From Flavobacteriaceae bacterium (GTDB lineage: Bacteria > Bacteroidota > Bacteroidia > Flavobacteriales > Flavobacteriaceae): a stretch of 35,875 bases of DNA. The position numbers and the translations under genes are program-made. Where the stretch lies: positions 1-35,875 of the forward strand of contig NVRM01000016.1 of assembly GCA_002400885.1 (NCBI GenBank). Reading direction: 5' to 3'. Below are positions 25,567 through 35,875 of the stretch, piece by piece (positions within the stretch are counted from its first letter, which is position 1; each line of letters opens with the position of its first letter). The notes beneath the pieces are model-generated. The model had not been told where the DNA came from and did not search any database. It saw only the letters and a list, made by a program, of their open reading frames with translations.

Positions 25567-26946
25567 CTAACCTATCATTTTAAGCATCGATTTTAACAAC
25601 TTAAATTTCCCTTGATAAGGTGCATATCTAATCGGTAAATCTGGCCAAGAATAGCGTTTGGTAATACTTTTATGATGTGAAAATGTATCGAACGTCAATT
25701 TCCCATGATAGGCCCCCATTCCACTATGTCCTACGCCTCCAAATGGCAAACGATCATTTACAAAATGGATCAACGTATCGTTAATACAACCACCTCCAAA
25801 AGAATATTTTTCTAAGATAGACGCAATAAATTTCTTGCGATTACTAAAAATATACAAAGACAATGGTTTTTCGTAATGTGTCATAAACGTAGCGATATCT
25901 TCTTCTGTTTCATAGGAGAACACAGGCGATATAGGCCCGAAAATTTCATCTTTCATTACTTCACTATCCATCGGCGGACTGTCTATTAATGTAGGAGCAA
26001 TAAAAACATCGGTTCTATCTGTCTGTCCTCCATACACAATATTTACATCTACCAACATCTTGTGTAATCGATCAAAATTACGTTCGTTTATAATACGTGG
26101 ATAATTTTCTGATTGTTGTATATCTTCCCCATAAGCGGCCGTAATTGCATTGGAAAACTCCGTAATAAAATCATTTTTTATACTTTTATGTACTAAAAAA
26201 TAATCGGGAGCAATACAAGTTTGTCCTGCATTTAAAAATTTTCCCCAAACCAATCTTTTGGCTGCTAATTTCAAATCTGTAGTTTCGTCTATGATACATG
26301 GATTTTTCCCTCCTAACTCCAAAATCACCGGTGTTAAAAATTCAGCCGCTGCCTTCGCTACAATTTTACCAACGGTAACGGAACCCGTAAAAAAGATTAA
26401 ATCCCAACGTTGTTTTAATAAAAACTGAGATGTTTCTACTCCTCCTTCTATCACCGAAACATGCCCCTCATTAAATACATTTGAAATAATACTTTGCACA
26501 ATAGCTGCCGTATTAGTCGCTAATTCCGAGGGTTTAAAAACCACGCTATTTCCTGCCGATACAGCTCCTATAATCGGCGCTAATGCTAATTGATAAGGAT
26601 AATTCCATGGGCCAATAATTAAAATTCTCCCAAAAGGATCTTTATGAATTTTACTAAAAGAAGGGAAATTTAATAGTGCTGGAAAAACAGCTGTTGGTTT
26701 TGCCCATTTTTTAAGATTTCTTATGGCCTTGTTTAATTCCATTAACACCATTCCTGTTTCGGAAATCAAACTTTCAAAAGCAGGTTTTTTAAAATCGGCA
26801 TACAGAGCATTATGAATTTCGTCTTCTCTCAAAATCAACTCCGATCGCAACTTCTTGAGCAATTTCAGTCTAAATTGGACATCTTTTGTCTTATGTGTTT
26901 TGAAAAAGGCATCTTGACCGTTTATGATTTGCGTGATATGTTCCAT
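25567..26946 (-). CDS. Aldehyde dehydrogenase (ALDH3-like)
   Basis: An NAD(P)-dependent aldehyde dehydrogenase of the class 3/fatty-aldehyde type, about 459 residues and without the longer N terminus of class 1/2. Catalytic C244 (NAGQTCIAPDY) and E210 (ILELGGKNP) are present, with N115 (IGPWNYPYQLAL) and the cofactor lysine K138 (VVFKPSE). FFTGSV (185-190) and FGPISPVF complete the Rossmann and oligomer signatures. The C-terminal LPFGGVGHSGMGAYHGKLTFDTFSH is typical of class 3. The natural aldehyde cannot be told. The gene is divergent from the ilv operon and has its own promoter 19-51 bases upstream and its own terminator, so its closeness to ilv is probably positional. Confidence 0.93.
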   Translation of the reverse strand: MEHITQIINGQDAFFKTHKTKDVQFRLKLLKKLRSELILREDEIHNALYADFKKPAFESLISETGMVLMELNKAIRNLKKWAKPTAVFPALLNFPSFSKIHKDPFGRILIIGPWNYPYQLALAPIIGAVSAGNSVVFKPSELATNTAAIVQSIISNVFNEGHVSVIEGGVETSQFLLKQRWDLIFFTGSVTVGKIVAKAAAEFLTPVILELGGKNPCIIDETTDLKLAAKRLVWGKFLNAGQTCIAPDYFLVHKSIKNDFITEFSNAITAAYGEDIQQSENYPRIINERNFDRLHKMLVDVNIVYGGQTDRTDVFIAPTLIDSPPMDSEVMKDEIFGPISPVFSYETEEDIATFMTHYEKPLSLYIFSNRKKFIASILEKYSFGGGCINDTLIHFVNDRLPFGGVGHSGMGAYHGKLTFDTFSHHKSITKRYSWPDLPIRYAPYQGKFKLLKSMLKMIG

Positions 26947-26964
26947 GATATATTGTTAATTATT

Positions 26965-26997
26965 CAAATTTAAAGCTTTATTTTAAAAAAGTACGCA
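26965..26997 (-). promoter_or_regulatory. Aldehyde dehydrogenase promoter
   Basis: On the minus strand TAAATTTG (complement of 26965-26972) matches TAnnTTTG, and TTG (complement of 26995-26997) is 22 bases upstream. The leader would be about 12 bases. Confidence 0.5.
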
Positions 26998-27004
26998 ATG
27001 AATT

Positions 27005-27034
27005 TTGTTTTTTAAGAATTTATTCTAATATTTG
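27005..27034 (+). promoter_or_regulatory. ilv operon promoter
   Basis: TTG (27005-27007) and AATATTTG (27027-27034) are 19 bases apart, with one mismatch to TAnnTTTG. The start would be near 27040, about 31 bases before the leader-peptide ATG. Confidence 0.55.
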
Positions 27035-27071
27035 TCACGTACTTAATAAAACAAACAAAAGAGTACCAAAA

Positions 27072-27158
27072 ATGAAAAATTTTAACTCACCTATTATTAT
27101 TTCTTTAATTAACGTCGTTGTAATTCGAATTACAAGGGCAAGGGAAGGGATGGTATAA
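27072..27158 (+). CDS. ilv operon leader peptide (attenuation)
   Basis: A 28-codon open frame with ATG at 27072 and TAA at 27156-27158. Codons 7-20 read PIIISLINVVVIRI, and TRAREGMV ends the peptide. It has six Ile, four Val and one Leu codon, the three products of the operon downstream, with Ile codons at 8, 9, 10, 13, 18 and 20 and Val at 15-17. It resembles the E. coli ilvL leader in design, not in sequence. Translation of these codons would report charged Ile- and Val-tRNA. The GGAAGG that encodes part of the Arg-Glu-Gly end is complementary to the terminator arm, so the peptide's end may be set by RNA pairing. I judge this a real leader peptide because the composition, promoter distance and terminator position all agree. 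Confidence 0.85.
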   Translation: MKNFNSPIIISLINVVVIRITRAREGMV

Positions 27159-27212
27159 TGTGAACAACAACATATTTTATTTAAAAAACCTTCCTTAAAC
27201 GGAAGGTTTTTT
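27118..27212 (+). promoter_or_regulatory. ilv transcription attenuator
   Basis: Three competing structures are visible. First, a palindrome at 27118-27135 (seven-pair stem, UCGA loop) made from the Val-Ile-Arg-Ile codons themselves is a candidate pause hairpin. Second, AGGGAAGG (27141-27148) can pair with CCTTCCTT (27189-27196) in eight pairs, one a G-U, as antiterminator. Third, CCTTCC (27189-27194) with GGAAGG (27201-27206) plus A/T pairs is the terminator. A ribosome stalled on codons 15-18 leaves 27141-27148 free, so the antiterminator forms. One that reaches the stop at 27156 covers that segment and lets the terminator form. This is inference from pairing, consistent in all parts. Confidence 0.8.
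27183..27212 (+). terminator. Attenuator terminator before ilvD
   Basis: A 12-pair stem (AAAAAACCTTCC at 27183-27194 with 27201-27212) has a six-base loop and runs into about 11 T. It lies between two divergent genes, 261 bases before the ilvD ATG, so it can only act on a plus-strand leader transcript. Confidence 0.9.
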
Positions 27213-27473
27213 TTTTTGAACTAAAGAGTGTAAATAAAAACACACAAATATCGAAAAATCAACAACTTAAGACAAATAACAGACACTTGAATACTGTAAA
27301 ACAGGAGAAAATGAAATAAAGAGCCCGTAAAACAAAAGTACTTTCGGTCATTAGAATTGATTATAGTTAACAAAACAGCATTCTAAAGACTAAAACAAAC
27401 AAGAATTAACGAATAAATTAAAAAAAAACAGAAGTCAGCTTTAATTTATTGAGATTTATATAAAAAACAAACA

Positions 27474-29150
27474 ATGCAATTAAACAAACACAGCAGAAGA
27501 ATCACTCAAGACGAAACCCAACCAGCTTCACAAGCTATGTTATACGCTGTCGGATTAACGGATGAGGACATGAACAAACCTCAAGTGGGAATTGCAAGTA
27601 CAGGATACGATGGAAATCCATGTAACATGCACTTGAACGAAATGGCCAAGGAAATAAAAGCCGAGGTAAATAAATTAGAACAAGTAGGATTGGTGTTTAA
27701 TACCATTGGAGTGAGTGATGGAATATCCATGGGAACCTCAGGGATGAATTACTCCTTACCTTCTAGAGATATCATTGCAGACTCTATGGAAGTTGTTTGT
27801 AATGCACAAAGCTACGACGCCTTAGTTCCTGTAGTAGGATGTGACAAAAACATGCCCGGTTCTGTGATGGCCATGTTGCGATTAAATAGACCGTCGTTAA
27901 TGGTCTATGGTGGGACGATCGCCTCTGGATGTCACGAAGGAGAAAAATTAAACATTGTATCAGCCTTTGAAGCTTTAGGGAAGAAAGTAGCTGGTATTAT
28001 AGATGAAAAAGAATACAAACAAATTATAAAAAAGGCATGCCCGGGCCCAGGAGCGTGCGGAGGAATGTATACCGCTAACACTATGGCTTCTTCAATTGAA
28101 GCGATGGGATTTGCCTTGCCTTTCAACTCTTCTATTCCAGCGGAAAGTGAGATGAAAGCAAAGGAAGCAGAACGTACTGCCAAGGCGATCAAGAACTTAT
28201 TAGAATTGGATTTAAAACCCTTGGACATCATCACTAAGAAATCGATTGAAAATGCGGTGGTATTAGTAAACGCCTTAGGTGGATCTACCAATGCTGTATT
28301 GCATTTCCTAGCAATTGCACACGCAGCAGACATTGATTTCACCTTGGATGATTTTCAACGTGTAAGCGATAGAACACCCGTAATTGGAGATTTAAAACCT
28401 AGTGGAGAGTACCTTATGGAAGATGTTCATAGAGTTGGAGGAACACCGGCCGTTATGAAATACTTATTAGAAGAAGGACATTTACATGGCGATTGTATGA
28501 CGGTCACAGGAAAGACCATAGCAGAAAATTTAGCCGACGTACTTCCTTTATCATTTGAACAAGATGTAATTCATTCTAAAGGTGTACCAATAAAAGAAAC
28601 AGGAAATCTCCAGATATTATACGGAAACCTTGCAAACGAAGGATCTGTAGCTAAAATAAGTGGAAAAGAAGGAGAATTATTTGAAGGACCCGCCATTGTT
28701 TTTGATGGAGAAGATGCAGCAAACGATGGTATTCGTGCAGGAAGAGCAAAAAAAGGAGATGTAATAGTCATTCGCTATGTAGGACCTAAAGGTGGGCCAG
28801 GAATGCCTGAAATGCTAAAACCAACTTCTATGATTATGGGCGCTGGACTAGGAAAAACGGTCGCATTAATTACAGATGGTCGTTTTTCTGGAGGAACACA
28901 TGGATTTGTCGTAGGACACATTACCCCAGAAGCACAAAGCGGAGGTATGATCGCCTTATTAAAAGATGGAGATCTCATTACAATTGATGCTTCTAAAAAT
29001 AACATCAGTGTAGCATTAAGCGACACACAAATCAAGGAAAGAAAAAAGGCGTGGACGGAGCCAGCTCCCAAACACCCAAAAGGAATATTATACAAATATG
29101 CAAAAATGGTAGCCACGGCATCGGAAGGATGTGTTACCGATAAATTTTAA
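27474..29150 (+). CDS. ilvD: Dihydroxy-acid dehydratase
   Basis: The enzyme dehydrates 2,3-dihydroxy-isovalerate and -3-methylvalerate to the keto acids that precede valine/leucine and isoleucine. Its 558 residues carry the three iron-sulfur cysteines C50 (DGNPCNMH), C123 ([10 protein letters not shown]) and C195 ([16 protein letters not shown]), the metal aspartate D82 (GVSDGISMG) and K125 in the CDK motif. The C-terminal part has [12 protein letters not shown] and [16 protein letters not shown], typical of IlvD. It is the first structural gene of ilvDBNCA, and the ilvB ATG follows its stop by four bases. Confidence 0.97.
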
Positions 29151-29154
29151 GACT

Positions 29155-30888
29155 ATGGAAACAAAAAGCACCCTAACAAAAACTTCAGACACACAAAAAA
29201 CGGTTCGAATTATTGGAGCAGAAGCCGTTGTCAAATGTCTGTTAGCTGAAGGACAAACATTAGGTTATGGCTACCCTGGAGGTGCCATTATGCCGGTGTA
29301 TGACGAACTGTACAAATACCAAGACCAGTTTACACACATCCTTACCCGCCATGAACAAGGCGCTATTCATGCAGCACAAGGACATGCACGTGTTACCGGT
29401 GATGTAGGAATTGTATTTGCCACATCTGGCCCTGGAGCTACTAATTTAGTCACAGGAATTGCTGATGCACAAATAGATTCTACTCCATTGGTTTGTATCA
29501 CAGGTCAAGTCGCTTCTCATTTGTTAGGAACAGATGCTTTTCAGGAAACCGACATTGTTGGTATCTCTACCCCTGTTACCAAATGGAATTATCAAATTAC
29601 TAAAGCTTCTGAAATTCCAGGTGTATTTGCAAAGGCATTTTACATTGCTAAATCTGGTAGACCAGGGCCTGTTTTGATAGACATTACTAAAGATGCCCAA
29701 TTGGAAACATTTGATTTTGTGTATAAAAAATGTACTTCCATACGTAGTTATAGGCCAATACCTCATTACGATTATAATAAAATTAAGGAAGCTGCTACGC
29801 TTATAAATACCGCCAAAAAACCTTTTATAGTATTTGGACAAGGGGTTATACTAGGGGCAGCCGAACAGGAATTTAAAGCAGTCATAGAAAAAGCAGGTAT
29901 TCCATCTGCATCTACCGCATTGGGTTTATCAGCAATTAATTCTGATCACCCTTTACATGTAGGAATGGTAGGAATGCATGGGCATTATGCTCCCAATAAA
30001 TTAACCAATGAATGTGATGTCTTAATTGCCATTGGAATGCGTTTTGACGACCGTGTTACAGGTGATTTAGCACGTTATGCGACACAAGCTAAGGTCATTC
30101 ATTTTGATATCGACCCTGCGGAAATAGATAAAAATGTACCTACAACTGTGGCCGTATTGGGTGATGTAAAAGAAACCTTGGCTGAATTACTTCCCTTGTT
30201 AGATACGAAAACACACGATACTTGGTTTGACCAATTTAAAAAATTACGTGCCATTGAAAATAAAGAAGTGATTATCCCTCAATTGTATCCTAGCAAGGAA
30301 GGATTGACTATGGGAGAAGTATTGAAAGGTATTAACATAGAATCTAAAGGTGATGCCATAATTGTATCAGATGTAGGACAACACCAAATGTTTGCTTGTC
30401 GCTATGCCGATTTCAAAAAAACGAGGAGTAATATTACCTCTGGAGGACTAGGAACGATGGGCTTTGCATTACCTGCAGCAATTGGAGCGAAACTAGGAGC
30501 ACCAGACAGAGAAGTTGTGGCAATTATTGGTGATGGAGGATACCAAATGACGTGCAACGAATTGGGAACTATTTTACAAACCAAAGCCGCTGTCAAAATT
30601 GTAGTGCTAAACAATGGTTATTTAGGAATGGTACGCCAGTGGCAAGAATTATTTTTTGACAAACGCTACGCTTCTACAGAAATGATAAGCCCTGATTTTG
30701 TAAAATTAGCAGATGCTTATGACATTGAAGCTGTCCGTGTTTCTAAGAGAGAGGATTTACCAGGAGCCATAAAAAAAATGATGGCATCAGACCAGGCATT
30801 TTTCTTAGAAGTAATCATAGAAAAAGAAGACAATATATTCCCAATGATACCAACGGGATCAAGTGTTTCAGAAGTTAGACTTAAATAA
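29155..30888 (+). CDS. ilvB: Acetolactate synthase large subunit
   Basis: The catalytic, thiamine-diphosphate-dependent subunit of acetohydroxyacid synthase, the first common step for valine, leucine and isoleucine. I start at the ATG at 29155 (METKSTLTKT, 577 aa), four bases after ilvD; the frame is open a few codons further upstream but would overlap ilvD. Catalytic E67 lies in RHEQGAIHAAQGHARVTG, GPGATNLVTGIADAQ follows, and the thiamine-binding GDGGYQMTCNELGTI continues to NNGYLGMVRQWQ near the C terminus. The ilvN ATG is two bases past its stop, so subunit synthesis is probably coupled. Confidence 0.96.
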   Translation: METKSTLTKTSDTQKTVRIIGAEAVVKCLLAEGQTLGYGYPGGAIMPVYDELYKYQDQFTHILTRHEQGAIHAAQGHARVTGDVGIVFATSGPGATNLVTGIADAQIDSTPLVCITGQVASHLLGTDAFQETDIVGISTPVTKWNYQITKASEIPGVFAKAFYIAKSGRPGPVLIDITKDAQLETFDFVYKKCTSIRSYRPIPHYDYNKIKEAATLINTAKKPFIVFGQGVILGAAEQEFKAVIEKAGIPSASTALGLSAINSDHPLHVGMVGMHGHYAPNKLTNECDVLIAIGMRFDDRVTGDLARYATQAKVIHFDIDPAEIDKNVPTTVAVLGDVKETLAELLPLLDTKTHDTWFDQFKKLRAIENKEVIIPQLYPSKEGLTMGEVLKGINIESKGDAIIVSDVGQHQMFACRYADFKKTRSNITSGGLGTMGFALPAAIGAKLGAPDREVVAIIGDGGYQMTCNELGTILQTKAAVKIVVLNNGYLGMVRQWQELFFDKRYASTEMISPDFVKLADAYDIEAVRVSKREDLPGAIKKMMASDQAFFLEVIIEKEDNIFPMIPTGSSVSEVRLK

Positions 30889-30890
30889 TT

Positions 30891-31415
30891 ATGGAAGAAA
30901 AACAAAAATTTACGATTTCGGTATACACCGAAAATAACATCGGATTGTTAAACAGAATTTCGGCTATCTTTTTAAAACGTCATATCAATATTGAAAGTTT
31001 GACGGTGTCAAAATCCGAGATAGAAGACGTCCATCGTTTTACAATCGTAGCAAACATGACTGAAAAGGCGATTAAGAAAATTTTAGGTCAAATAGAAAAA
31101 CAAATCGAAGTAATTCGTGCTTTTTACCATACCGATGATGAAGTTATATTTCAAGAAACGGCCATGTTTAAAATATCAACAGAGCACTTGTACGACGAAA
31201 AAATACAAAACAAATTAAAATTACGCCATGCTCATATGGTGACCATAAACGAGCGGTATTTTGTAATTGAAACAACGGGGACCACTGAGGATATTAACCG
31301 ATTATACGATCGATTGAAACCCTATGGTTTATTACAGTTTGTACGGTCTGGACGGATCGCAATTACCAAAGAAAAAATGGCAATATCAGAATTATTACAA
31401 GAATTTAAAGACTAA
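30891..31415 (+). CDS. ilvN: Acetolactate synthase small subunit
   Basis: The regulatory subunit of acetohydroxyacid synthase. The N-terminal ACT domain (about 5-78) begins FTISVYTENNIGLLNRISAI with the glycine turn that binds valine in the family, and the second domain reaches residue 174. Length is that of the usual 160-180-residue form. In the family, valine binding at the ACT dimer face lowers catalytic activity. Gene spacing is two bases from ilvB and six bases to ilvC. Confidence 0.94.
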   Translation: MEEKQKFTISVYTENNIGLLNRISAIFLKRHINIESLTVSKSEIEDVHRFTIVANMTEKAIKKILGQIEKQIEVIRAFYHTDDEVIFQETAMFKISTEHLYDEKIQNKLKLRHAHMVTINERYFVIETTGTTEDINRLYDRLKPYGLLQFVRSGRIAITKEKMAISELLQEFKD

Positions 31416-31421
31416 ATTAAA

Positions 31422-32894
31422 ATGGCAAATTATTTTAACAGCTTACCGTTACGCTTACAATTGGAACAATTAGGAACTTGCGACTTTATGGATGCATCTG
31501 AATTCCCTAATGGAGTGGAAAAATTAAAAGGAAAAAAAATAGTTATTGTTGGTTGTGGTGCACAAGGACTAAATCAAGGATTAAACATGAGGGATTCTGG
31601 ATTGGATATCTCTTATACATTACGTGATGGGGCAATCAGCGAACAACGTACTTCCTATAAAAATGCCGTAGAAAACAAATTCAAAGTAGGAACCTATCAA
31701 GAAATGATTCCTTCTGCAGATATGTTGATCAATTTAACTCCGGATAAACAACATACAAATGTAGTGTCTACCATAATGCCACTGATGAAAAAAGACGCAA
31801 TACTCTCCTACTCCCACGGTTTTAATATTGTCGAAGAAGGTATGGAAGTCCGTAAAGATATCACCGTTGTGATGGTGGCTCCTAAATCTCCTGGTTCAGA
31901 AGTGAGACAAGAATACAAACGTGGATTTGGAGTTCCTACATTAATAGCTGTACATCCAGAAAACGATCCCAATGGAGATGGTTTTGAAATTGCAAAAGCC
32001 TATGCTGCTGCAACAGGAGGTCATAAAGCAGGAGTATTAAACTCCTCATTCGTTGCGGAAGTAAAATCAGATTTAATGGGAGAACAAACCATTCTATGTG
32101 GATTATTACAAACAGGATCTATCCTATCTTTTGATAAAATGGTGGAAAACGGACTGGAACCTGCCTATGCCACTAAATTGATACAATACGGATGGGAAAC
32201 GATTACCGAAGCATTAAAACACGGTGGAATTACCAATATGATGGACCGTTTATCAAATCCCTCAAAAATAAAAGCCTTCAATCTCTCCGAAGAATTAAAA
32301 GATATTATGCGTCCTCTATTTCAAAAACATATGGATGATATTATGTCCGGACATTTTTCAAAAACTATGATGGAGGATTGGGCCAATGATGATAAAAATT
32401 TATTGTCTTGGAGAGCCGAAACAGGAAACACTTCTTTTGAAAAAACAACAGCAAGCGCTCAAGATATTTCTGAACAAGAATTCTTTGACCATGGAGTGTT
32501 ATTAATTGCCTTCGTAAAGTCAGGAGTAGAATTAGCTTTTGAAACGATGACAGAAGCAGGAATTAAAGAAGAATCCGCTTACTACGAATCATTACATGAA
32601 ACACCATTAATTGCCAATACCATCGCACGTAAAAAATTATTTGAAATGAATAGAATCATTTCTGATACTGCAGAATATGGTTGTTATTTATTTGATCATG
32701 CCTGTAAACCATTGTTAGCCGATTTTATGAAAACTGTCAATACTGATGTAATCGGAAAATCATTTGACACCAACGGAAATGGCGTTGATAATAAAGAATT
32801 AATTGCAGTGAATGACGCCATTCGCTTTCACCCTATCGAAATTATAGGAGACGAATTAAGAGCTTCTATGACTGCCATGAAAAAAATAAGTTAA
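31422..32894 (+). CDS. ilvC: Ketol-acid reductoisomerase, class II
   Basis: The NADPH-dependent enzyme rearranges and reduces acetolactate and acetohydroxybutyrate. At 490 residues it is the long class II form, with a doubled knotted C-terminal domain as in E. coli IlvC (491 aa); the class I form is about 330. The cofactor loop is [19 protein letters not shown] with SYTLRDGA just after. [20 protein letters not shown] (about 152-171) and [13 protein letters not shown] (near 215-227) with the metal-binding acidic residues are conserved. It begins six bases after ilvN. Confidence 0.96.
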
Positions 32895-32978: not shown

Positions 32979-34238
32979 TTGAATACACTTAACGAAACCA
33001 TCTCTTTAGAAAAAATATACAAAGCACAACATCAAATAAAAGATGTTGTGGAAAATACACCCCTGGTGTACATGAAAAATTTTTCTAAAAGATACAATGC
33101 CTCAATATATTTTAAAAGAGAAGATTTACAAATTGTAAGATCTTATAAAATAAGAGGCGCTTTTAATAAAATAAAAGGACTTTCAAAAGAAGATTTAACC
33201 AACGGGATTGTTTGTGCAAGTGCAGGAAATCATGCCCAAGGTGTCGCCTTTTCTTGTCAAAAACTAAAGGTAAAAGGAACAATTTTCATGCCTGTAACCA
33301 CACCGCATCAAAAAATAGATCAAGTACGAATGTTTGGTGGATCCTTTGTAGAAGTTATTTTAATTGGTGATAGTTTTGACGATAGTTCAGAAGCCGCCAA
33401 ACAATTTTGTAAAGACCACCATAGTACCTTTGTACATCCATTTGACGACTTAGATGTTATTGCAGGACAAGGAACTGTAGGCCTAGAAATATTAAACGAC
33501 TCAACAAGTCCCATTGATTATGTTTTTATGCCTGTTGGCGGAGGTGGATTGGCCTCAGGTATTTCAAGTGTATTTAAGGCTTTAAGTCCGGAAACAAGAC
33601 TTATTGGTGTAGAACCAGAAGGTGCTCCTTCCTTAACGACATCACTTAAAAACGGAAAAAACACAAGCTTAAAAAATATCGAGAAATTTGTAGATGGCGC
33701 TGCTGTAAAACGCATGGGTGAAATCACCTTTGAGCTTTGTAAAAGACAATTAGACGCCACCAATGTAATTTCCGAAGGCCTAATTTGTTCCACTATTTTA
33801 AAAGTGTATAACGAAAATGCCATGGTCGTAGAACCTGCCGGAGCCTTGTCTATTGCAGCACTTGAAAAACACAAAGATGAAATCATAGGTAAGACAGTTG
33901 TCTGTGTGGTAAGTGGAGGAAATAATGACATCACGCGAATGGAAGAAATGAAAGAGAGAGCTTTATTATACGAAGGCCTTAAACATTACTTTATCATCCG
34001 TTTTCCTCAAAGAGCTGGTGCATTAAAAGAATTTGTGGTAGATGTCTTAGGAGACACCGACGATATTGCATATTTCGAATACACCAAGAAAAACAATAGA
34101 GAAAAAGGCCCTGCAGTGGTAGGCATTGAACTAGAAAACAAGGAAGACTTTCAACCTTTAATTAATAGAATGAAAGAAAAAGGTTTTTTAGGAGAGTACT
34201 TAAACGACAATCCTGAACTGTTTCGATTCTTGATTTAA
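32979..34238 (+). CDS. ilvA: Threonine ammonia-lyase
   Basis: The PLP enzyme deaminates threonine to 2-oxobutyrate, the first step special to isoleucine. The 419 residues include the Schiff-base lysine K57 (RSYKIRGAFNKI), SAGNHAQGVAF (about 80-90) and the phosphate loop PVGGGGLASGIS near 185-196. After residue 325 a single ACT-like domain follows (HYFIIRFPQRAGALKEFV), the usual isoleucine/valine site; E. coli IlvA has two such repeats. The only in-frame start before the conserved N terminus is a TTG at 32979; the next Met is residue 32. A TTG start and an upstream hairpin suggest lower output than the other ilv genes. Confidence 0.93.
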   Translation: MNTLNETISLEKIYKAQHQIKDVVENTPLVYMKNFSKRYNASIYFKREDLQIVRSYKIRGAFNKIKGLSKEDLTNGIVCASAGNHAQGVAFSCQKLKVKGTIFMPVTTPHQKIDQVRMFGGSFVEVILIGDSFDDSSEAAKQFCKDHHSTFVHPFDDLDVIAGQGTVGLEILNDSTSPIDYVFMPVGGGGLASGISSVFKALSPETRLIGVEPEGAPSLTTSLKNGKNTSLKNIEKFVDGAAVKRMGEITFELCKRQLDATNVISEGLICSTILKVYNENAMVVEPAGALSIAALEKHKDEIIGKTVVCVVSGGNNDITRMEEMKERALLYEGLKHYFIIRFPQRAGALKEFVVDVLGDTDDIAYFEYTKKNNREKGPAVVGIELENKEDFQPLINRMKEKGFLGEYLNDNPELFRFLI

Positions 34239-35459: not shown

Positions 35460-35535
35460 TTTTATTTCTTGTGTTGGTTAAAAAGTAAATATACGTTTTT
35501 TGTGTTTAGTAGAAAAAGAGCATTGCTAAGTCACC

Positions 35536-35757
35536 ACGGTTAGGATGTATTGCATACGCCAATATTGAAAAAGGGCGTATTGCAATACGCCCTTACCTAT
35601 TGATATTATGCGTGTTGTATGGTATGATATTTCGTTCTTAAGAACGATGCAATAAAGGCCGATATCTAAGTGAAAACTAGAATAAAAATCATGTAGAGAC
35701 GCAAAATCTTGCGTCTCTACGGTTAGGGCGTATTGCATACACCCTTTTCCAATATGG
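35536..35757. repeat. Cluster of REP-like palindromes
   Basis: Four palindromic units lie within 222 bases. The 25-base unit beginning ACGGTTAGG occurs at 35536-35560 and again at 35719-35743 with three differences; both copies contain GTATTGCATAC. A perfect 24-base palindrome is at 35571-35594 with core GCGTATTGCAATACGC. TCGTTCTTAAGAACGA at 35632-35647 is perfect. A 12-pair hairpin (GTAGAGACGCAA / TTGCGTCTCTAC) is at 35693-35720. The GTAGAGACGC type is a common short palindrome in Bacteroidota and cyanobacteria. No transposase is nearby. Confidence 0.75.
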
Positions 35758-35784
35758 GCGAAATATTTTCCGCCCAAACGCAAA

Positions 35785-35816
35785 AAATCCTCAATTAAAT
35801 TAATAATTGAGGATTT
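35785..35816 (-). terminator. rRNA operon terminator
   Basis: A perfect 13-pair stem (AAATCCTCAATTA at 35785-35797 with 35804-35816) with a six-base loop and six T on the minus strand lies just past the 5S rRNA 3' end. Confidence 0.9.
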
Positions 35817-35824
35817 AAAATAAA

Positions 35825-35875
35825 GGCGACGACATACTCTCCCACCCAGGGGCAGTACCATCTGCGCTAATAGGC
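35825..35875 (-). rRNA. rrf: 5S rRNA, 3' part (cut by the window edge)
   Basis: Read on the minus strand the last 51 bases contain GCGCAGATGGTACTGCC and GTGGGAGAGTATGTCGTCGCC, the well-known 3' half of 5S rRNA. The 5' part and the rest of an rRNA operon must lie to the right, transcribed toward this window. The exact 3' end is uncertain by a few bases. Confidence 0.92.

Follow-up and report, generated by a model that had tools for sequence, protein, structure and literature searches.

A putative ribosome-mediated transcription attenuator upstream of the ilvDBNCA operon in Flavobacteriaceae

Introduction

Why should a strong intrinsic terminator stand in front of ilvD, between two divergent genes? 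The question is raised by a stretch of 35,875 nt (contig NVRM01000016.1, positions 1-35,875, assembly GCA_002400885.1, hereafter the window) from a Flavobacteriaceae draft genome of 2.96 Mb and 75% completeness. A preliminary description of this DNA had proposed that the terminator belongs to an attenuator controlled by the translation of an Ile/Val leader peptide. To our knowledge, leader-peptide attenuation is documented mainly outside Bacteroidota.

In 2010, leader-peptide systems had, to the knowledge of the authors of one study, not been shown outside Proteobacteria and Actinobacteria (PMC2965389). For Flavobacterium psychrophilum, strong clues were reported for leader-peptide attenuation before amino-acid operons, with elements in front of hisG and pheA that also occur in other genera (PMC9723704). 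Here, the region upstream of ilvD was analysed by sequence comparison and RNA folding in the window and in its relatives.

Leader, terminator and operon in the window

The leader frame starts with the ATG at 27072, reads MKNFNSPIIISLINVVVIRITRAREGMV and ends with a TAA stop codon at 27156-27158 (Table 1). Its 28 codons include six for Ile, four for Val and one for Leu, hence a codon run that matches the products of the operon behind it, ilvD-ilvB-ilvN-ilvC-ilvA, each gene of which scored above its curated NCBIfam cut-off. The centre of the frame holds a perfect 18-base palindrome, TTGTAATTCGAATTACAA (27118-27135), one of three perfect palindromes of at least 16 bases in the window. The longest of the window is the 24-base perfect AAGGGCGTATTGCAATACGCCCTT at 35571-35594, which lies within a minus-strand open frame (35526-35861).

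Close to the leader end, GGGAAGGG at 27142-27149 (codons 24-26) can pair with the 5' arm of the terminator. The latter consists of AAAAAACCTTCC, the loop TTAAAC and GGAAGGTTTTTT (27183-27212) with a T run reaching 27217, has a predicted stability of -13.4 kcal/mol (27184-27215) and is followed by 261 bases before the start of ilvD. No listed gene needs this terminator, since the left neighbour, an aldehyde-dehydrogenase-like gene at 25567-26946, is located on the minus strand and points away from it. The frame, the palindrome, the GGAAGG arm and the strong terminator were all found at the positions given in the preliminary description, and its statement that nothing else needs ending there was borne out by the divergent left gene. 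Upstream of the leader, TAATATTTG resembles, without matching it exactly, the flavobacterial TAnnTTTG box.

Table 1. Coordinates of the putative attenuator and of the operon behind it.
Feature	Position	Strand	Basis
Promoter-like boxes: TTTG (27004-27007), 18-base gap, TAATATTTG (27026-27034)	27004-27034	+	sequence
Leader frame, 28 codons and stop	27072-27158	+	sequence; relatives
Segment 1, predicted protector 5' arm (codons 8-12)	27095-27106	+	folding; own-versus-swapped tests in relatives
Nested hairpin, core is the 18-base palindrome	27114-27139	+	folding; covariation
Segment 2: predicted partner of segment 1 (27144-27155) and predicted antiterminator arm (27141-27148)	27141-27155	+	folding; covariation
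Intrinsic terminator; 5' arm (segment 3) and loop, 27189-27196, are the predicted antiterminator partner	27183-27217	+	sequence, folding
ilvD	27474-29150	+	TIGR00110 over cut-off
ilvB, acetolactate synthase large subunit	29131-30888	+	TIGR00118 over cut-off
ilvN, acetolactate synthase small subunit	30891-31415	+	TIGR00119 over cut-off
ilvC	31422-32894	+	NF003557 over cut-off
ilvA	32979-34238	+	NF006390 over cut-off

Predicted competing helices

Without a ribosome, the RNA 27041-27215 was predicted to fold with -37.7 kcal/mol (z -3.7; 1 of 200 shuffles equally good) into a protector stem around the nested palindrome hairpin, followed by the terminator. The protector (1:2), in which 27095-27106 pairs with 27144-27155, would hide the antiterminator arm. 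This stem is missing from the preliminary description, the other structural parts of which were recovered. When the 3' arm of the terminator was left out, 27141-27148 paired with 27189-27196 (-15.0 kcal/mol; none of 200 shuffles equally good). The predicted antiterminator is thus a helix of 8 bp between AGGGAAGG and CCUUCCUU that makes use of the terminator 5' arm.

Ribosomes were then represented by masks placed by hand. With a mask at codon 9, 14, 17 or 19, segment 2 was free and the antiterminator was the minimum until the 3' arm was complete, and a mask at the stop codon left the terminator alone. In the complete transcript the terminator was the minimum even in the stalled states tested (codon 9: -28.5 when complete, -25.0 before the 3' arm). 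In a stalled state the antiterminator is thus the better structure only until the 3' arm is complete, and at equilibrium the terminator wins; antitermination would therefore have to be kinetic. In the absence of a ribosome, just before the terminator 3' arm is made, the minimum was the antiterminator and not the protector.

Occurrence before ilvD in the family

Regions upstream of ilvD were collected from the best 80 of 569 confirmed contig loci and from 30 whole-genome loci, the source of the latter being a set of family genomes in which 110 of 149 gave an ilvD match. After removal of L044 and L088, whose upstream DNA was too short, and of L085 and L099, which duplicate L003 and L016, 106 of the 110 loci were used, with near-identical pairs such as L014/L092 retained. 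Leaders had to be frames of 12-45 codons with six or more I/L/V in 12, and terminators had to be perfect stems of 6 bp or longer that carry a T run and follow the frame after 5-55 nt. Under these criteria 54 of 106 loci, among them the window and the neighbour from its genus, have a leader rich in branched-chain amino acids plus a terminator in front of ilvD, and 52 loci were without such a unit. Ten rounds of dinucleotide shuffling of the 106 loci gave 0, 0, 0, 0, 1, 1, 1, 0, 0 and 0 units. The leader of a typical relative reads MKKQILNIISIIVIVIISQR. Over 60 units, I/L/V made up 61% of frame 0, 36% of frame 1 and 6% of frame 2, a comparison that is biased because frame 0 had been picked for its content of these residues. 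Frames of relatives like MDYFIILDIIKNLV, near -250, were rejected as leaders by eye because no start is conserved.

A covariance model of the element (R1) matched 77 of 199 family genomes at E <= 0.001, a count that includes the Asn class described below and comes from a model that keeps 5 base pairs only and thus mainly recognises sequence. The R1 match G000:C94 (E 0.0025) was judged by eye to be a false positive, an inverted repeat right behind a dnaK-like frame. The terminator-like G000:C54:7835-7888 has no Ile/Val leader among the frames listed next to it and was rejected as a unit.

Of 58 units, 38 have a TTTG box no more than 45 nt ahead of the leader ATG, usually at a distance of 12-19 nt; in the window the distance is 44 nt. 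If TTTG is the -7 box, the leader mRNA would start a few bases before the ATG in many relatives and some 30 bases ahead of it in the window.

Covariation of the arms

The terminator arms of 60 units fall into two main codes (46 CCUUCC-like, 11 CCUGUAUC-like, 3 others), and the leader end tracks the code, being GGAA(U)GG-like or GAUAC(A)GG-like. The antiterminator and segment 2 were tested with 60 units, after one chance frame of L007 had been removed; automatic selection chose a wrong frame in the first of the two L082 units, where the leader is probably MENSNNNIINIISNVVIISLR. Own antiterminator pairs reached -10.35 kcal/mol versus -7.84 kcal/mol for swapped ones, and none of 20000 permutations was equally good, neither overall nor within the CCUUCC code. 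Within the CCUGUAUC code the difference between own and swapped pairs was not significant (1463/20000). Thinning to 42 and 25 diverged units still gave 0/20000 overall and a weaker signal within CCUUCC (53 and 584 of 20000); such permutations only partly remove relatedness, and the switch of arm code and the tandem loci are independent of it. The conservation in relatives that the preliminary description had named as a check is present, namely leader frames rich in Ile/Val whose codons vary, and joint changes in the arms of antiterminator and terminator across two codes.

RNAalifold on the leader alignment recovered the nested hairpin and the terminator, and the protector was absent from its consensus. 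The protector was therefore tested pair by pair. In 43 loci, own pairs were better than swapped ones (-8.9 vs -7.34; 0/20000 permutations equally good), also after thinning to 38 and 21 units (0 and 1 of 20000). The mean probability that segment 2 pairs upstream was 0.79 in the 60 units versus 0.51 with the upstream part shuffled; it exceeded the shuffled mean in 60/60 units, but only 26/60 units surpassed 29 or more of their 30 shuffles. By eye, several relatives have Ser (AGC/AGU) in place of Ile (AUC/AUA) at codon 8, and GC for GU in segment 2. For the nested hairpin plus terminator in 40 sequences, 85.1% of the cells were paired and 28 cells were changed on both sides, against a shuffled mean of 10.7. 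Slid versions of the same structure were at most 58.1% paired, and one of them equalled its 11 pairs with double changes. Both the antiterminator and the protector are thus predicted in the window and covarying among relatives.

The leader tail and the same-genus genome

The tails were aligned for 40 of the 46 CCUUCC references, L032, L066, L074, L082, L092 and L104 being omitted for divergence or redundancy, and the window took the place of L083 in this 40-sequence alignment. Judged by eye, the majority of these relatives have their stop codon at the antiterminator arm or just ahead of it. In the window and in the same-genus genome G003 the frame passes through the arm and stops beyond it, so that the arm is translated. 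The leader is 95.4% (83/87) identical to that of G003, the spacer 92.0% and the terminator 93.3%, versus 72.9-86.2% for six other stretches. The four base changes in the leader affect three codons and all change the amino acid (K/E, P/L, A/I). None of them touches the arm or the palindrome, and those at 27138-27139 preserve the predicted outer stem of the nested hairpin. The earlier suggestion that it is the RNA, not the peptide, for which the TRAREGMV end may be conserved has gained strength from the position of the stop codon in most relatives and from the unchanged arm within the genus. Conservation of the leader end as RNA fits these comparisons.

Tandem units

Two leader-plus-terminator units follow each other at six loci (L006, L007, L061, L066, L082 and L109); the window carries a single unit. 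L006, L007, L061 and L109 combine a first unit of the CCUUCC code with a second unit of the CCUGUAUC code. At L006, L061 and L109 both leader ends favour the terminator of their own unit, the first unit of L007 has no such preference (-4.4 own, -5.8 other), and at L066 and L082 the leader ends do not discriminate between the terminators. Two leader frames that act as attenuators in one leader mRNA are also described for mgtCBR of Salmonella, where they respond to two signals, ATP and proline (PMC3641672), whereas in the flavobacterial tandems both leaders of a pair are rich in Ile/Val.

The same design before other operons

The genome of the window itself contains a His-containing leader, MYNLIHHTHRFFSDQHRVS, which together with a strong terminator precedes hisG and hisD, the terminator ending a short way from hisG (L116:1501-1629, corresponding to G000:C86:2687-2815); the fold of this region has a z of -6.6. 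In relatives, an Ile/Val leader precedes ilvE in one NCBIfam-checked case and in three more by eye.

In relatives of the window (L151-L159 and the gatA loci L164-L180), an Asn-rich leader (e.g. MRNNNNNNNFNNPNT) of the same architecture, with a CCTTCC/GGAAGG terminator, was observed; of 17 close gatA loci, 11 have it in front of the gene. Two such leaders were folded, with z of -4.9 and -5.6. The GatA copy tested scored 431.6 bits, below the TIGR00132 cut-off of 481.1. In both operons scanned, the gene after gatA encodes a GatB::AspRS (gatB::aspS) fusion of 1110-1112 aa, and frames of 1115-1123 aa with a synthetase match are present in 15 of 16 such Asn-class genomes. This suggests that the Asn leader responds to Asn-tRNA(Asn), which is what the pathway under its control produces. 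No paper on an Asn leader before gatA was found in the literature searched.

An AsnB of about 560 aa (TIGR01536) was detected in 4/4 comparison genomes (G000, G003, G040, G096) and in 0/16 Asn-class genomes with an R1 match, the Asn leader itself having been read in 13 of these 16 (G162, G155 and G175 count by R1 match only). Ten of the Asn-class genomes are without AsnB over the cut-off and six have only frames of 587-640 aa; AsnRS is present in 18/18 genomes tested. With a comparison set as small as four genomes, it looks as if tRNA-dependent amidation had replaced AsnB in the Asn class.

Discussion

The element in the window is most probably (about 90%, a judgement from sequence) a ribosome-mediated transcription attenuator of the design known from the E. 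coli trp, his and ilv operons. Three helices would compete: the protector 1:2, the antiterminator 2:3 and the terminator 3:4. With charged Ile- and Val-tRNA, the ribosome would get to the stop codon at 27156 and cover segment 2, the terminator would form, and the transcript would end near 27212-27217. When Ile- or Val-tRNA is scarce, the ribosome would stall at codons 8-18, covering segment 1 or opening the protector. The free segment 2 would then catch segment 3 during synthesis, and the polymerase would continue into ilvD-B-N-C-A. A probable role of the nested hairpin is to stabilise the protector, and it may also make the polymerase pause. The Ile/Val attenuation reading of the preliminary description is supported by the occurrence of the unit in 54 of 106 loci and by its covarying arms.

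A simpler account would have the terminator merely end a small RNA or a constitutive short transcript, with the frame incidental in A+T-rich DNA and a promoter for ilvD within the 261 bases behind it. Something may indeed be conserved in that gap: in relatives it contains the motif pair TTGRRCRTCATA and TTAATTTCG-like (e.g. L008:1270-1400), the first of which occurs in 41 of 106 loci, with a spacing of 117 in 29 loci and 118 in 3. The pair is possibly also present, weakly, in the window at 27319-27366, a stretch 85% identical in the same-genus genome. RNAalifold found no consensus structure in 15 sequences of the terminator-to-ilvD region, and the pair is perhaps a protein-binding site or a second promoter. 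However, L003, where the terminator ends just 33 bases before ilvD, leaves little room for a promoter, and an incidental frame is hard to reconcile with an Ile/Val leader and terminator that recur in half of the loci with arms covarying with the leader end. We consider this account improbable.

Still less probable is that a metabolite-binding RNA or an RNA-binding protein, in place of the ribosome, chooses between antiterminator and terminator. A long and structured leader with a terminator would suit such a regulator, but the amino acids of the frame match the products of the operon, and the Rfam covariance models gave no match at gathering score in the whole window, either for a T-box or for another leader family. 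Among weak matches up to E 1 in 26940-27500, the best (E 0.013-0.025) overlap the terminator with scores far below the cut-offs, and none was credible.

Ribosome-mediated attenuation as proposed here is a known mechanism, of the classical E. coli type. In design, E. coli ilvL (ilvGMEDA) and ivbL (ilvBN) share with the putative element a leader with branched-chain codons, alternative helices, a terminator and the pathway. In contrast to them, the window has no match to an Rfam leader model, its leader is dominated by Ile and Val with one Leu codon, it precedes ilvD-B-N-C-A, and its antiterminator arm is located inside the frame. The Corynebacterium ilvB-II, ilvB-OMG and Leptospira ilvB motifs are described as having upstream frames rich in branched-chain amino acids and predicted attenuation before ilv genes, but they belong to other bacterial groups and differ in sequence and in the gene, ilvB coming first (PMC10272879). 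The suspected attenuators of F. psychrophilum concern the same bacterial family and the same proposed mechanism, which the main text of that study gives in one sentence and without ilv (PMC9723704). No paper describing this ilv element was found in the literature searched; Lopatovskaya et al. 2010 may cover Bacteroidetes.

Taking the operons together, Flavobacteriaceae could share an attenuator chassis with an exchanged codon run, a view to which we give even odds. The chassis would consist of a short leader codon run, a protector with nested hairpin, an arm at the stop codon and a CCUUCC-type terminator, and the codon run would be exchanged according to the tRNA: Ile/Val before ilvD and ilvE, His before hisG, Asn before gatA and the gatB::aspS fusion. 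Part of the same view is that doubling at ilv, mostly with two arm codes, would let a single leader mRNA take two successive decisions about the same amino acids. Common descent of the His, ilvE and Asn leaders with the ilv element would be one candidate reading of their likeness.

For the family, these results point to covarying attenuation of the main branched-chain amino acid operon in Bacteroidota. The natural variants, with swapped arm codes, tandem units and a stop codon moved past the antiterminator arm, illustrate the trade-off between coding and RNA pairing in the leader. The element also offers ready constructs for asking whether the coupling of transcription and translation in Bacteroidota is tight enough for attenuation.
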